The notes beneath the pieces are model-generated. The model was not told the DNA's origin. It saw only the letters and a program-made list of their open reading frames with translations, and did not search any database. Below, piece after piece: positions 4,930-25,044 of a stretch of DNA of 26,290 bases. Source of the DNA: a virus; IMG/VR virus record IMGVR_UViG_3300020731_000405, positions 1 to 26,290 of that record. The stretch is one strand, 5' to 3'. The position numbers and the translations under genes were made by a program. Within the stretch, counting starts at the first letter, position 1. Every line of letters begins with the position of its first letter.

Positions 4930-4958
4930 ATTATACTACCTTTTACTCTGTGTGTCAA
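4930..4958 (-). promoter_or_regulatory. Consensus sigma70-type promoter for hsp20
   Basis: TTGACA, exactly 17 bases, TATAAT on the minus strand, matching the bacterial consensus at all 12 positions. The -35 contains the TGA stop codon of dnaK. Predicted +1 is near 4923, giving a leader of about 57 bases with a hairpin and an AAAGGAG site. Likely read by host RNA polymerase. Confidence 0.88.
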
Positions 4959-6850
4959 ACTTCTTTGAATTCTGCATCAACCGTTTCTCCACCGTCTTTT
5001 GGTGCATCTGTTGGTTGAGCTTGTTTAGCCGCTTCTGCCGCTTGTTTCTTTTCAAACAATGGCTTGGCCGCTTCAAAAGTTTTAGTAACGCTTTCTTGGA
5101 TCTTCTCTTTGTCGTCTCCAACAACTGCTTCGTCAACAGCTTTCAAACTATCTTCGATTGCAGTTCTTTCATCTTCGCTGAGTTGATCTTTGAACTCACT
5201 AAAATCTTTCTTCAAATTGTGTGTAGCCGCTTCAGCATTGTTACGTGCTTCAACTAGGTCACGCAATTTCTTATCAGCTTCTGCGTTAGCTTCAGCTTCT
5301 TGTACCATCTTTTGGATTTCTTCTTCTGTCAAACCGCTATTAGCTTTAATAGTGATTTTGTTTTCTTTTCCAGTGTTTTTATCCTTAGCTGATACATTCA
5401 AAATACCATTAGCGTCAATGTCTAATGTTACTTCGATCTGTGGAGTGCCGCGTGGTGCTGGTGCAATACCTTCTAGGTTGAATTCACCTAACAGTTTGTT
5501 ATACTGCATCATTTCACGTTCACCCTGACCAACTTTAATAGTTACAGCTGGTTGATTGTCATCTGCTGTTGAAAACACTTGTGAGTGTTTAGTTGGGATT
5601 GTTGTATTCTTGTTAATCAACTTAGTAAAGATACCGCCCATTGTTTCGATACCTAAACTTAGCGGAGTAACGTCTAACAACAGAACGTCTGTCTTGTCGC
5701 CTGCTAGAACAGCACCTTGTACTGCGGCGCCTGCGGCAACTGCTTCATCTGGGTTAACGTCTTTACGTGGAGCCTTACCAAACAGTTTCTCAACTGCTTC
5801 TTGTACTTTAGGCATACGTGTTTGGCCACCAACTAGGATAACCTCATCGATGTCGTTAGCTGTAACCTTAGCATCTTTCATAGCTGTTTTACATGGCTCG
5901 ATTGAACGTTGAATTAAACTTTCAACCATTGCTTCAAACTTGCTACGTGTAATAGTCACATTCATGTGTTTAGGACCAGTAGCATCTGCTGTGATGTATG
6001 GCAAGTTAACTGCTGTGCTTTGTGCTGAAGATAATTCAATCTTAGCCTTTTCAGCAGATTCTTTCAAACGTTGTAGTGCAAGAACGTCTTGTTTTAAATC
6101 GATACCGTTTTCTTTCTTGAACTCATCAACTAAGAAATCCATAATGGCTTGGTCAAAGTCTTCACCGCCTAAGAATGTATCGCCGTTTGTTGATAATACT
6201 TCGATTTGCTTGTCGCCATCGATGTTAGCAATTTCAATAATTGAAATATCAAATGTACCACCACCTAAGTCGTATACAGCAATCTTACGATCTTTCTTAT
6301 CTGTCTTATCAACACCATATGCTAGTGCGGCCGCTGTTGGTTCATTGATGATACGCAATACTTCTAGTCCAGCAATACGTCCAGCATCCTTAGTTGCTTG
6401 ACGTTGGCTATCGTTAAAGTAAGCAGGTACTGTAATAACTGCTTGGGTTACTGTTTCGCCCAAATAGTCTTCAGCTGTCTTTTTCATTTTGCGTAGAACT
6501 TCTGCACTTACTTGTTGTGGAGCAAGTTTTTGATCGTTGGCTTCGATCCAAGCATCACCATTGTCTGCCTTAATGATTGCATAAGGCATTAAGTCGATGT
6601 CCTTCTGGACTTCTTTTTCTTCGAACTTACGTCCGATTAAACGCTTGGCCGCGTAAATTGTATTTTTGGGATTTGTGACTGCTTGTCGTTTTGCTGTTGC
6701 ACCTACAAGAACTTCGTCTTTAGTATATGCAATGATTGATGGTGTTGTTCTAGCACCTTCGCTGTTTTCGATTACTTTAGCTTTTCCGTTTTCTAGAATT
6801 GCTACACAGCTATTTGTTGTACCTAAGTCGATACCAATGATTTTACTCAT
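4955..6850 (-). CDS. dnaK: DnaK (Hsp70) chaperone, full length
   Basis: 631 aa, close to E. coli DnaK (638). The ATPase domain has [12 protein letters not shown] (residues 5-16), [13 protein letters not shown] and [11 protein letters not shown]. The substrate domain has the linker region [19 protein letters not shown] and [19 protein letters not shown]. The C-terminal lid ends with an Ala/Lys/Gln-rich tail and VDAEFKEV, the acidic end typical of proteobacterial Dna[20 protein letters not shown] and KADNGDAW look betaproteobacterial, suggesting acquisition from the host lineage. No dnaJ or grpE is in the window, so host co-chaperones are presumably used. Start is set by AAAGGAGAAAATT before ATG. 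A late-type promoter and a hairpin lie upstream. Confidence 0.98.
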
Positions 6851-7992: not shown

Positions 7993-8574
7993 TTATCTCT
8001 GATTTGCAAATGGTGCAATATAAGCACCGTCCTTAGTTGTACTAGTACGCAAAGTGTTATAAACATTTTGAATACCTACTGCTTGATTCCACGCATCTTC
8101 TAACGCATGGTGAGCTGTTACTGGAGGACGTTGTGGATTGATACCTAAGTCAAATGCTGTACGAACATCACGTACTTCCCAAAACTTCCAAGGTATTGCC
8201 TTGTTAATTTTACGGAACACATGTTCGCAAATGATAATATCAAAACAACTACCATTTGACCAAACACGCTTTGCACCCCAGCAGAACTTATACAATTGAG
8301 CAAAAGCATCAACGATATCAATTCTTCCTTCAGGGTCAAACGCGGCGGCTTGCGCTTCTTTACTTTGATTGGCCCACCAAGCAATGGTATCATCGCTTGT
8401 TGTTAATCCAATTCTGTCACAACTATCAAGATCTACTTTGACGTAGAAACTCTGCATCTCGGGTTCTTTAAGTTCGGACCCAAACGGATCAAACTTAACA
8501 GCGCCGATTGTAAGGATGGTTGCGTCTGGAGTTGTATTTAGAGTCTCCAAATCTATCATAATGTCAGTAAGCAT
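7993..8574 (-). CDS. DEDDh 3'-5' exonuclease (DnaQ-like fold)
   Basis: 193 aa. MIDLETL near the start gives the first D-E pair, ILTIGAVKFDP follows, a middle Asp lies in WSNGSCFDIIICEH, and AHHALEDAWNQA near residue 160 gives the final H-x(4)-D. This arrangement matches the Rv2179c/ExoVIII-like branch of the DnaQ superfamily, which includes phage DexA-like enzymes acting on single-stranded ends or RNA. Predicted transcription starts at the A of its ATG: TATAAT, six bases, ATG, with no room for a Shine-Dalgarno. A second ATG at 8559 is possible but would also lack a ribosome site. It heads the exonuclease-MazG-peptidase group. Confidence 0.88.
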   Translation of the reverse strand: MLTDIMIDLETLNTTPDATILTIGAVKFDPFGSELKEPEMQSFYVKVDLDSCDRIGLTTSDDTIAWWANQSKEAQAAAFDPEGRIDIVDAFAQLYKFCWGAKRVWSNGSCFDIIICEHVFRKINKAIPWKFWEVRDVRTAFDLGINPQRPPVTAHHALEDAWNQAVGIQNVYNTLRTSTTKDGAYIAPFANQR

Positions 8575-8580
8575 ACAAAC

Positions 8581-8609
8581 ATTATAGCAGACTTAGACAC
8601 TTATGTCAA
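8581..8609 (-). promoter_or_regulatory. Consensus sigma70-type promoter, predicted leaderless
   Basis: TTGACA, 17 bases, TATAAT, a full consensus match, with the S21 TGA stop inside the -35. Six bases separate the -10 from the exonuclease ATG, so +1 falls on the A of ATG. An imperfect stem (about 10 bp with a 2-base bulge) can pair the spacer with codons 2-5 in read-through RNA. Confidence 0.88.
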
Positions 8610-11277: not shown

Positions 11278-11301
11278 ATTATGGGCTCCTATTATATTAG
11301 G

Positions 11302-11309
11302 TATTTATC
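11302..11309 (-). promoter_or_regulatory. Late-type promoter GATAAATA
   Basis: TGATAAATAC on the minus strand, 24 bases before the structural gene start and directly after the downstream arm of the 12-bp inverted repeat. The same TGATAAATA string precedes the tailspike gene. Confidence 0.6.
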
Positions 11310-11352
11310 AGTAAAACGTCTATGTTGCATTATAGCAGGCAGACGTTTTACT
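11310..11352 (-). repeat. 12-bp perfect inverted repeat with promoter in the loop
   Basis: AGTAAAACGTCT and AGACGTTTTACT, 19 bases apart. TATAAT lies in the loop and the upstream arm fills most of the -35/-10 spacer. No U-tract follows, so it is not a clear terminator for the gene at 11367. It may be an operator or an RNA hairpin in read-through transcripts. Confidence 0.7.
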
Positions 11353-11357
11353 AACAA
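11329..11357 (-). promoter_or_regulatory. Sigma70-type promoter TTGTTA-17-TATAAT
   Basis: Perfect -10 and a 4/6 -35 at 17-base spacing on the minus strand; +1 near 11322, leader about 45 bases. It overlaps the 12-bp inverted repeat. Confidence 0.55.
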
Positions 11358-12415: not shown

Positions 12416-12423
12416 TATTTATC
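12416..12423 (-). promoter_or_regulatory. Late-type promoter GATAAATA upstream of the hydrolase
   Basis: GATAAATA on the minus strand overlapping the stop codon of the preceding gene, about 170 bases before the hydrolase ATG. Late timing would fit a lysis gene. Confidence 0.5.
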
Positions 12424-12817
12424 TCCTCATTCGGGAAATATCTACTGCCTCTTCATCACTAAAAACCGGCACTGCGTTGCTTTTATGCATGGTTGCGATG
12501 CCTTTTACTTTTGTGCCAGTGTACACTTTGGCTGGTGCTAGTGTAGCATTACCGCCGCCTGTATCTCTACTCTTAATATGAGCAGTAGTATTACGGCCTT
12601 CTGGAATCTTTAAGCTATAAGTAGAACTTAAACTTGGAGCACTCATAGCACGAGTACGCTTCTTGTCTTCTGCTTCTATAGCCCAACGCTTTTGAAGCTC
12701 TTTCCAAGATTCTTCCAATTCTCTAGCCTTTCTAGCATGTTCTGCCGAAGCAAATTTCTTTTTGCCTTTTTTCTTGCCTGTAGTACTAAGCCACGGACCT
12801 TCTAAATGCATACTCAA
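12419..12817 (-). CDS. Unknown basic phage protein
   Basis: 132 aa counted from a TTG at 12817; that TTG is 7 bases after GGAG, while the ATG two codons later (12811) is 13 bases after it, so the TTG may be the true start. The first 60 residues are strongly basic and helical (KKKGKKKFASAEHARKAREL, ESWKELQKRW); the rest is Ser/Thr-rich and likely disordered. No family recognised. Its Shine-Dalgarno lies inside the downstream arm of the inverted repeat at 12825-12870, which also encloses its promoter. Confidence 0.66.
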   Translation of the reverse strand: MSMHLEGPWLSTTGKKKGKKKFASAEHARKARELEESWKELQKRWAIEAEDKKRTRAMSAPSLSSTYSLKIPEGRNTTAHIKSRDTGGGNATLAPAKVYTGTKVKGIATMHKSNAVPVFSDEEAVDISRMRR

Positions 12818-12824
12818 AATAAAT

Positions 12825-12870
12825 CTCCAAAAGTTATAACAATGCTAATAGTATAGCACCACTTTTGGAG
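12825..12870 (-). repeat. 10-bp inverted repeat that contains the Shine-Dalgarno
   Basis: CTCCAAAAGT and ACTTTTGGAG, 26 bases apart. On the minus strand the downstream arm carries the GGAG ribosome site of the gene at 12419, the loop carries TATACT, and the upstream arm lies in the promoter spacer. Read-through RNA can hide GGAG; RNA begun at +1 (near 12843) lacks the upstream arm. Confidence 0.75.
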
Positions 12871-12878
12871 ATTGTCAA
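12850..12878 (-). promoter_or_regulatory. Sigma70-type promoter TTGACA-17-TATACT
   Basis: Perfect -35, 5/6 -10, 17-base spacer on the minus strand, just after the stop of the secreted-protein gene. Drives the basic protein gene at 12419. Confidence 0.82.
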
Positions 12879-12879
12879 C

Positions 12880-13197
12880 TTAGTTTGGAACTAATGCACT
12901 TCTATAGCAATTACAGTTTGCATCCAAAATAGCTTCCCAGTGATAACCATATGGAGGTTGCGGAGGAACTACTTGGGGTGCTGGATAAACTGGTTGTGGT
13001 TGTACCACTACAACATCTGGACGTCTAGGTTGTGCTAGTTCATATCCAATTACTCCACCGATTACACTTGGTACTACCCAACCAAATCCTGGACGGTAAA
13101 CATAATGTCCGCCTCCATGATGCCAGCCATCGGCGTAGGATACTGCACAGAAACTTAACCCTGCACACAGTATAAAAGTTGTCAGAATTTTTTTCAT
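12880..13197 (-). CDS. Small secreted protein, Gly/Pro-rich
   Basis: 105 aa with a clear signal peptide (MKKILTTFILCAGLSFCAVS, cleavage probably after YA). The mature part has HHGGGHYVYRPGFGW, a short Gly-rich hydrophobic stretch (SVIGGVIGYELAQ), then a Val/Gln/Pro repeat (VVVVQPQPVYPAPQVVPPQ) and a Cys pair near the end (NCNCYR). Proteobacterial genomes hold many envelope proteins of this make-up; none has a firm function I can transfer. It was probably picked up from a host. The start has GGTGAT upstream and lies 23 bases after the H1-like gene. Confidence 0.7.
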   Translation of the reverse strand: MKKILTTFILCAGLSFCAVSYADGWHHGGGHYVYRPGFGWVVPSVIGGVIGYELAQPRRPDVVVVQPQPVYPAPQVVPPQPPYGYHWEAILDANCNCYRSALVPN

Positions 13198-21081: not shown

Positions 21082-21089
21082 TATTTATC
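21082..21089 (-). promoter_or_regulatory. Late-type promoter GATAAATA upstream of the tailspike
   Basis: TGATAAATAT on the minus strand 19 bases before the tailspike ATG; its TGA is the stop of the nuclease gene at 21088. Position suits a late gene with a short leader. Confidence 0.65.
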
Positions 21090-21804
21090 AGTTTTGTTTG
21101 TAGTACTGTTCCACCCTATTCCACCACTGTTTTTCCCAATGATCAAACATGTCTGGAGTTAAAATAAACTCCTGATAAGCAGGTTCTCCCCAAACTAGTG
21201 GGCTAATTTCAGGAGGTTTAACGCACATAAACACAACACCTTTGCGTATGTTGGTTCCGTGTACTTCATTATGTGCCAGGGCATAGGCAACCATCTGTAA
21301 GTAGTAATCTTCAATCCATTCTTCCTTTTTAGGCTTATTAGATTGTTTATGATCCATAATTGCTGGATCATTTAAATGTAATCCTACACAGTCCGTAGTG
21401 CCAGCATATAATCCAGGAAAATATAAGGGTACTTCTACACCCCATACTTCATTAACATTAACTAGGCCGTTTTCAATAATGTGTTTGGCCATCTTATGGC
21501 TTTGTACACTATATGGATTAGTTCCTGGTGGATTAATTGTGCCTTGTACAATATAGTCTTCTAGGAACTTGTGCATACGTGTTCCGCGACCAGCGGCTTC
21601 AGTTACAATTTCTTGTGCCTTTGTTTCGCCTACACGTTTTTTCCATTCAAGCAGAGCTTGCACCTTTTCCCAAGGTTTAGTTTTATCTAATATAGTAGTT
21701 ACTGAGGGGAGTTTGTTACCGTCTGGCGTTGCGTATAATCGCTTGCCTTCTACGCTTTCTCTATTAATAGGTGCGTAGTTATATTTTTCTTTGAGTAGAG
21801 TCAT
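21088..21804 (-). CDS. RecB/Cas4-type PD-(D/E)XK exonuclease
   Basis: 238 aa. PSVTTILDKTKPWEKVQALLEW at the N-terminus is usual for this group (given here only as the PSVTTIL segment plus a W-rich helix). GRGTRMHKFLEDYI (residues about 72-85) carries the helix His, YAGTTDCVG gives the first catalytic Asp, and AIMDHKQSNK gives D-x-K, followed by the Gln/Tyr motif WIEDYYLQMVAYA. T4-like marine phages often have such a nuclease, probably for recombination or end processing. Predicted +1 of its promoter coincides with the A of ATG, and the ATG lies in a 9-bp inverted repeat. Confidence 0.88.
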   Translation of the reverse strand: MTLLKEKYNYAPINRESVEGKRLYATPDGNKLPSVTTILDKTKPWEKVQALLEWKKRVGETKAQEIVTEAAGRGTRMHKFLEDYIVQGTINPPGTNPYSVQSHKMAKHIIENGLVNVNEVWGVEVPLYFPGLYAGTTDCVGLHLNDPAIMDHKQSNKPKKEEWIEDYYLQMVAYALAHNEVHGTNIRKGVVFMCVKPPEISPLVWGEPAYQEFILTPDMFDHWEKQWWNRVEQYYKQN

Positions 21805-21830
21805 GGAGTAATTTTACAATCACTCCATGA
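21801..21830 (-). repeat. 9-bp inverted repeat containing the nuclease start codon
   Basis: TCATGGAGT and ACTCCATGA, 12 bases apart. The loop holds TAAAAT; the downstream arm holds the ATG; the upstream arm lies in the promoter spacer. Same plan as the repeat at 12825-12870. Confidence 0.78.
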
Positions 21831-21839
21831 ATTTGTCAA
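21811..21839 (-). promoter_or_regulatory. Sigma70-type promoter TTGACA-17-TAAAAT, predicted leaderless
   Basis: Perfect -35, 5/6 -10, 17-base spacer. The -10 ends 6 bases before the nuclease ATG, so +1 is the A of ATG. It starts 3 bases after the end of the preceding ORF. Confidence 0.82.
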
Positions 21840-24355: not shown

Positions 24356-25044
24356 ATCATATTCTCCAGGCTTAAATTGGAGTCCGTTAATCGTTGTAAA
24401 TGTCTGTGCAATTTGTCTATCTTACCACGGCCTCTTAGTAGTTTGTATGCTAAATTTTCAATACTAAATTCACCACCTGCATCCAACCCTGCTTGTCGTA
24501 GACGTTTAAGATCTGCAATTACATCTTGTACTGTATTTAAGTCATCTGACTGTAGAGCTTTGTTAATCATACTGCTATAATTACGTGCTTTTTGACGAAC
24601 TTCTTTATCTTCTACGTTAGGTTTACGATTAGATGGCTTACTGAGCCATTTATTATCTAATATACTATAAATGCCGGCACTGTGATGTGGTTGCAGTTCG
24701 TCCTGCACATATACTTCTACATCTATATTGTGTATTTTAATAGCGTGTTTAAAATTGTAATTGTTTTTCTTAGCATCGTACAATTCACGTATTGCTGGAT
24801 TCTCAGGCATGGTTACTACTAGGTGTAGATCTATGTCACTATGATCACCATAACCGTAACTAGCATTACTGCCACTAATAGTTACATCTTTTAATTTGAT
24901 TGGGAGTGCTATAAACTTAACAAAATCTTTGGCAATGTTTAATAGCTTCAGCCTTACGTCATGACGTAAGGTTGTGCCTATCCATAATTTGGGATTGAGT
25001 TTAGTGTTATAGTGTACGGCTTGTACGAATTCTTGAATCTGCAT
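24352..25044 (-). CDS. Nucleotidyltransferase-fold protein
   Basis: 230 aa. ISGSNASYGYGDHSDIDLHL (residues about 56-75) is the G-S-x(n)-D-x-D signature of the pol-beta nucleotidyltransferase superfamily, and NIDVEVYVQDE supplies the third Asp. The C-terminal half is helical. This fold adds nucleotides to proteins, RNA or small molecules; the target is unknown. The N-terminus MQIQEFVQAVH is like the T4 internal-protein signal MKTYQEFIAEA, so it may be a packaged protein delivered with the DNA. The ATG sits at the end of a 7-bp inverted repeat around a late-type promoter, with no Shine-Dalgarno. Confidence 0.78.
   Translation of the reverse strand: MQIQEFVQAVHYNTKLNPKLWIGTTLRHDVRLKLLNIAKDFVKFIALPIKLKDVTISGSNASYGYGDHSDIDLHLVVTMPENPAIRELYDAKKNNYNFKHAIKIHNIDVEVYVQDELQPHHSAGIYSILDNKWLSKPSNRKPNVEDKEVRQKARNYSSMINKALQSDDLNTVQDVIADLKRLRQAGLDAGGEFSIENLAYKLLRGRGKIDKLHRHLQRLTDSNLSLENMI

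Follow-up and report, generated by a model that had tools for sequence, protein, structure and literature searches.

Genes e, soc and 49 of phage T4 and the intron-borne I-TevI gene, as well as mobE of Aeh1, are known to be translationally gated (PMC3014915, PMC2988022). In the T4 cases, longer RNA forms a hairpin that hides the Shine–Dalgarno (SD) sequence or the AUG, and RNA begun at a local promoter is missing the hairpin's 5' strand; the local promoter is a late one (TATAAATA, located in the hairpin loop at gene e, TATAAATACCTTCTATAAATACTTAGGAGGTATTATG), and the arrangement blocks early and middle RNAs. A different pairing of promoter and stem, the promoter early stem-loop (PeSL) of RB49-type phages, is reportedly described in Arbiol 2010 and Comeau 2014 (both cited in PMC4503421). 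PeSL stems have a terminator role; they accompany a sigma70 promoter, exist only in read-through RNA and, in RB49, lie wholly within the spacer between the −35 and −10 hexamers, with the SD outside.

The window analysed here, a stretch of 26,290 nucleotides, comes from a freshwater phage of the T4 type and carries at position 12825 an inverted repeat built around a promoter. Both here and at a second site, at 21801, a hairpin predicted in the longer RNA hides a start element (the SD at 12825, the AUG at 21801), the −10 hexamer lies between the arms, the inferred local RNA lacks the 5' arm, and relatives show compensatory pairing, at 12825 in a subset of them. Unlike in the T4 late gates, the promoters are of the sigma70 type (TTGACA-17-TATACT at 12825 and TTGACA-17-TAAAAT at 21801), and at 21801 the message appears to be leaderless, with the AUG alone hidden. 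The site at 12825 shares with PeSLs a sigma70 promoter and a stem confined to read-through RNA, but its arms flank the −10 hexamer instead of lying together inside the spacer. We propose, with a probability of about 0.7 on the comparative evidence below, that 12825 is a cis-acting RNA gate tying translation of the gene to its own sigma70-type promoter.

Anatomy and predicted folding of the 12825 site

The inverted repeat is perfect, as originally predicted, and longer than the 10 bp then claimed, comprising 13 bp with arms 26 nt apart (Table 1). Read on the minus strand, the site runs TTGACA-ATCTCCAAAAGTGGTGC-TATACT-ATTAGCATTGTTATAACTTTTGGAGATTTATTTTGAGTATG, and the predicted promoter and layout (a spacer holding one arm, a loop carrying the −10 and a second arm containing GGAG) were all found in place. 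The promoter scores 11/12 against the consensus, with a 17-nt spacer and an extended −10; the last base of its −35 hexamer is also the first base of the 5' arm, and GGAG stands seven bases ahead of the TTG start of the 132-aa gene. By our own estimate, a perfect 13-bp inverted repeat within ~70 nt is expected ~0.03–0.05 times per 26 kb, before an enclosed 11/12 promoter and an SD are also required.

Table 1 Features of the promoter-associated hairpins in the window (all on the minus strand).
Feature	Position	Strand	Remarks
12825 site: −35 hexamer TTGACA	12873–12878	−	in place in ~100 distinct homologous upstream regions
12825 site: 5' arm AATCTCCAAAAGT, within the −35/−10 spacer	12861–12873	−	13 nt, 100% complementary; covaries with 3' arm among relatives
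12825 site: −10 hexamer TATACT, extended (TG before), in hairpin loop	12850–12855	−	
12825 site: predicted transcription start, between the arms	12843	−	from the usual distance to −10
12825 site: 3' arm ACTTTTGGAGATT, holding the SD GGAG (12825–12828)	12822–12834	−	
Putatively gated gene for a conserved basic phage protein of 132 aa, phrog_27048	12419–12817	−	TTG start 12817–12815; ATG in relatives
21801 site: −35 TTGACA, exonuclease gene promoter	21834–21839	−	
21801 site: 5' arm TCATGGAGTGATT of the predicted start-codon-hiding hairpin	21818–21830	−	92% complementary; covaries in relatives
21801 site: −10 TAAAAT, part in loop, part in 3' arm	21811–21816	−	
21801 site: 3' arm AATTACTCCATGA, holding ATG	21801–21813	−	predicted +1 = A of ATG
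Putatively gated phage exonuclease gene, phrog_298	21088–21804	−	PD-(D/E)XK-like, below Pfam cut-off
Hairpin ATTCAG-TTAAATA-CTGAAT, late-promoter-like loop	25043–25061	−	z −3.0; ATG 25042–25044 in and beside 3' arm
Hairpin over TTGACA-17-TATAAT and start codon, 193-aa exoribonuclease-like gene	8542–8601	−	−27 kcal/mol, z −7.4
Inverted repeat around TTGTTA-17-TATAAT	11305–11357	−	17 nt, 88%; z −7.2; overlooked in the original prediction

Folding was predicted to differ between the two kinds of transcript: −26.7 kcal/mol (z −2.6) for RNA reading through the site, versus −5.5 kcal/mol (z +0.5) for RNA begun at 12843. In a near-identical relative (L002), the predicted accessibility of the SD was 0.00 in read-through and 0.24 in local RNA. 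The corresponding values at 20 °C were 0.04 and 0.27 across the 20 best armed loci, and a swapped spacer raised that of read-through RNA to 0.33; the SD of the local RNA is thus predicted to be only partly free. Read-through RNA is plausible at 12825, because the entire neighbourhood reads on the minus strand and only one base separates the −35 hexamer from the end, at 12880, of the upstream gene on that same strand.

Family and structure searches with the 132-aa protein gave no usable match, and its structure model is of low confidence. The C-terminus of phrog_27048 is strongly conserved (KVKGIATMHKSNAVPVF) across hundreds of freshwater phage contigs, some of them >340 kb. When the 12–14 kb stretch was compared with annotated phages, DNA similarity returned no match, and protein matches were confined to PhiW-14, ACP17, BUCT-ZZ01 and C48C1, for which the comparison covered the gene surroundings.

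Covarying pairing upstream of two unrelated genes

Four scans of viral contigs yielded several hundred matches to the 132-aa gene, corresponding after removal of duplicates to 138 distinct upstream regions, 101 of them with a recognisable promoter. The spacer measured 17 nt in all 101, the distance from the end of the −10 to the start codon was 25–33 nt in nearly all, and the promoter kept its position even where neighbouring genes varied. Stems between the spacer and the SD region scoring at least 10 were present in 16 of these promoters, compared with 1.0 expected after swapping spacers between clusters, which is an imperfect null. Mean duplex energy lay 4.5 to 7.6 SD below that null with clustering at 70–90% identity, which lessens the dependence among related loci and does not remove it.

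Pairing was bimodal among these relatives. The 3' arm AACTTTTGGAG and its variants recurred frequently, because the SD lies within it, and the 5' arm was the variable partner. Arms were diverse (CTCCAAAAGT, CCTCCAAACTT, ATCCAAAATTGTT, CTCCTAAAA, CAAATTCCTAAA and others), each complemented over the SD. According to the original prediction, the gate would be refuted if related phages did not conserve the pairing of the arms; pairing was in fact kept through compensatory change, in the case of 12825 in a subset only. Some 60–75% of the promoters had no arm, many of them downstream of the same abutting gene. As the promoter is kept and the arm absent in most relatives, the gate must be either dispensable or recently gained at the 132-aa gene, and judged by these alignments it is optional there. 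In 20 of 20 armed loci a same-strand gene ends ≤36 nt from the −35 hexamer; the idea that arms occur only where such a gene abuts proved uninformative, nearly all loci having one. A second, small palindrome, centred on the −10 hexamer (CTAGTATAATACTAG, AGACtgtataataAGTCT), was seen upstream of the 132-aa gene in L053, L060, L072, L122, L200 and others, frequently at loci lacking the long arm.

The exonuclease gene at 21801, which the original prediction had listed as a recurrence of the same plan, has a sigma70 promoter, a hairpin with a fold z-score of −5.4 and strong covariation, and is, by sequence comparison, the strongest case. In 49 distinct promoters of this gene, only 5–8 nt separate the end of the −10 hexamer from the ATG, a distance that predicts a leaderless message; a hairpin arm is predicted to hide the AUG itself. 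Stems scoring at least 10 were found at 24 of the 49 (1.75 expected) and in 13 of 34 clusters. Across 23 loci that could be aligned free of gaps, the register of the arms slides between 41 and 47 with pairing kept; at least 11 of 12 Watson–Crick pairs were formed in 10 of the 23, as against 0.12 by swapping, and position −3 is occupied by GC, AT, CG and TA in different loci. The 3' arm covers −9 to +3 in most loci and shifts as far as +3 to +17 of the ATG; it falls inside the coding sequence in L482, L485 and L471 and straddles the ATG in L434 and its kin. As far as these alignments indicate, the constant feature is pairing of the region around the start codon in read-through RNA. A U-tract was sought downstream of the exonuclease hairpin and none was found, which makes a terminator unlikely at 21801.

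Symmetric arms around a promoter have the classic look of an operator, and the repeat could be read as two DNA half-sites flanking the −10 hexamer and bound by a dimeric phage or host repressor. The mismatches within the stems bear on this reading. With G–U and A–C weighted alike in the scoring, the 132-aa gene stems contained 14 G–U and 2 A–C mismatches (swap null 145:143, p = 0.002) and the exonuclease stems 26 and 4 (null 331:199, p = 0.003), the p-values being approximate since related loci are not independent. An excess of G–U this far above A–C, inexplicable for a duplex site, indicates that it is pairing in the mRNA strand that has been kept, rather than a DNA operator. Furthermore, arm sequence, register and distance to the promoter vary freely between close relatives, and the position of the 3' arm follows that of the SD or start codon and not a fixed helical phase. 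Given the G–U bias and the sliding arms, in place of symmetric mismatches and a fixed geometry, we rejected the operator and regard it as highly improbable.

A simpler possibility is that complementarity between an AT-rich spacer and the SD region is fortuitous, as the lack of an arm in most relatives of the 132-aa gene might suggest. Pure chance was rejected on the spacer-swap tests; the existence of multiple arm families, the stronger covariation at a second gene and the excess of −10-enclosing repeats over control sites reported below argue in the same direction, leaving coincidence scarcely credible.

Related elements in the window, in freshwater phages and in T4

Three further sites in the window had been predicted to follow the same plan. 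At 25043 the hairpin is present, and the sigma70 promoter is not: the loop, TTAAATA, is late-like. Its arms covary, appearing as ATTCTG/CAGAAT in L500 and as GGGAT/ATCCC around an ATAAATA-like sequence in L513, and the site looks like a T4 late gate in leaderless form. At 2853, no structure rose above shuffled sequences (z −0.4), and the motif there is late-like (TATAAATA), so the claim for this site was dropped. The recurrence at 8581, predicted as imperfect, has a strong fold and a different geometry, with the 3' arm in the coding region, the −10 hexamer in the stem and the AUG in the loop; it is poorly kept, one of three compared relatives being partly similar. The repeat at 11305–11357 lies upstream of a 202-aa gene whose SD is well outside the arm, and L240 and L242 carry arms of other sequences there, with compensating changes. 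A late-like GATAAATA follows it at 11302–11309, and a late-like ACTGATAAATA is conserved after the 3' arm in the window interval 11301–11357 (minus strand). Elsewhere in the window, positions 4955–6850 (minus strand) encode a 631-aa protein whose best annotated phage matches are the chaperone DnaK (~68% identity, full length).

Across all fetched loci (835 distinct sigma70-like sites), inverted repeats enclosing the −10 hexamer with a score of at least 11 numbered 19, versus 1 in a control of the same composition. They are of two kinds: in one the 3' arm lies over the SD or start, and in the other it runs into a run of T with the SD outside. Judged by sequence, the latter resemble terminators whose loop carries a promoter, for example AAAGCCTCTG...CAGAGGCTTTtt in L202 and AAACAACCATTG...CAATGGTTGTTTtttt in L038. 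A sigma70 −10 hexamer inside the loop of an intrinsic terminator was observed at L202:3325, L126:3584, L038:2442, L043:4463, L285 (minus strand, 184777 of G003) and L259:7724. Such freshwater elements (L043, L038:2442, L202, L285, L259:7724) resemble 12825 in having the −10 in the loop and a stem only in read-through RNA; they differ from it in the run of T after the stem and the SD outside, and probably stop read-through transcription instead of hiding the start. Stems wholly inside the −35/−10 spacer, as in RB49-like promoters, were seen in three large freshwater phage records (G001 at 106282, G002 at 311353 and 311805, and G003 at 147172 and 7551). In RB49 itself, a scan found 12 promoters with a stem inside the 17-nt spacer, which are PeSL-type elements, and no −10-enclosing stem with a score of at least 9.

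The original prediction had set the sigma70-type promoter at 12825 against T4 gates that use late promoters, a contrast that did not survive a scan of T4. Sigma70 early promoters with the −10 hexamer in a hairpin loop were found at regB, alt.-3, dmd and mobD.2 (AF158101 near 62740, 123032, 20553 and 57932). At regB and alt.-3 the SD lies in the 3' arm, as at 12825, with a predicted folding energy of −23 kcal/mol for the read-through RNA; the genes and hosts are unrelated to those of 12825, however, and T4 early −35 boxes read TTTAC(A/T). Among regB upstream regions from 13 further phages, stems over the SD with scores of at least 11 and altered sequences were present in Mosigvirus NBG1, Moon, UTK0003, Q7622 and JS10, and none was found in SP18, TG1, avDM5 or SP1; the hairpin thus covaries across T4-like genera. 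No U-tract follows the regB hairpin, the next sequence being AATAAC. The early promoter that drives the gene closes after 2–3 minutes, and RegB's own cleavage controls the gene (PMC3014915). The regB section of that review of T4 post-transcriptional control mentions no hairpin gate (PMC3014915), and a 1986-type T4 record (X04567) marks the regB inverted repeat as a potential stem-loop/terminator, not as a gate. A search for an early-promoter gate at regB found no description in the literature covered, which left out most subscription journals.

These elements bear on whether 12825 could itself be an intrinsic terminator or insulator with a promoter in its loop, a compact composite like the PeSLs of T4-type phages, in which read-through RNA would be ended, local RNA would pass and hiding of the SD would be secondary. 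The 3' arm at 12825 is followed by TATTTTGA (5 T of 8), several armed relatives have T-rich tails, the same phages contain clear examples of a promoter inside a terminator (L202, L038, L285, L259), and X04567 labels the T4 regB stem-loop a potential terminator. On the other hand, the 12825 stem has only 4–5 G–C pairs and a loop of 26–31 nt, and the armed relatives L012, L118, L134, L036 and L180 lack a good run of T. Neither the exonuclease hairpin nor the regB hairpin is followed by a U-tract, coding sequence or AATAAC standing there instead, and the arms of the 12825 family sit over GGAG(G). Termination as the main function of 12825 seems unlikely to us, although with its T-rich tail this hairpin may act in part as a terminator.

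In several hairpins of the same geometry (11357, L043, L202, and T4 dmd and mobD.2) the arm does not include the SD, and the use of those hairpins must therefore extend beyond hiding of the start. Stems of 11–17 bp present in read-through RNA only, some of which leave the SD uncovered (11357, dmd, mobD.2), might instead be processing or decay signals, such as RNase III sites, that lower expression by cleavage and not by hiding. Where an arm covers the SD or AUG, however, it follows those elements while its sequence changes, a placement that hiding predicts and cleavage does not; we consider a processing role very unlikely at 12825.

A proposed gate for early genes

The gate as originally predicted, in which read-through RNA hides the SD or AUG and local RNA lacks the first arm, is favoured by the comparative evidence: the anatomy of the site, its conserved promoter, strand-specific covarying pairing, the predicted occlusion, reappearance of the plan at genes unrelated to one another, and a matching design in T4 at regB and alt.-3. 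From these we infer the following scheme, with its transcription starts, read-through RNA, block of translation and timing logic. Transcription from the local promoter would start between the arms of the hairpin. RNA arriving from upstream, where genes on the same strand end a few bases from the −35 hexamer, would carry both arms and fold, burying the SD (12825) or the leaderless AUG (21801) and giving little or no protein, while locally begun RNA, devoid of the first arm, would allow the ribosome to enter. Protein synthesis would then be limited to the time when the early promoter is firing, and the long polycistronic RNAs of other times would not contribute to it.

Because the promoters at 12825 and 21801 are of the sigma70 type, the timing logic would be the reverse of that of the T4 late gates, and because this is the early kind, served by host sigma70, the gates probably have a purpose opposite to that of the gate at the T4 lysozyme gene. 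A late-promoter gate would keep its gene silent until late, and a sigma70 gate would silence its gene after the early promoters have shut and long RNAs have come to prevail, so that synthesis would probably be confined to the early phase. RegB and the exonuclease would be proteins wanted only early. We lean slightly towards a general class of such own-promoter-only early gates in T4-type phages, comprising the phrog_27048 gene, the leaderless exonuclease gene, T4 regB and alt.-3, in which later read-through would be silenced and the leaderless form would hide the AUG alone. The device as such is already known; what is new is its recurrent, covarying use with sigma70-type promoters and the leaderless, AUG-hiding form. 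No prior description of a sigma70-promoter gate was found in the literature searched, outside which most subscription journals lay, and we make no claim of priority.

If the proposal is true, shut-off of early genes would act not only at their promoters but also on all other RNAs running across them, which could not be translated; this simple rule, which needs no protein, would make a gene obey only its own promoter. The textbook T4 late-gene device would be extended to early genes, with a leaderless, AUG-hiding version added, and the device may explain why synthesis of RegB in T4 is so tightly restricted to the early phase. Phage operon maps would, in that case, overestimate the number of genes translated from long transcripts.
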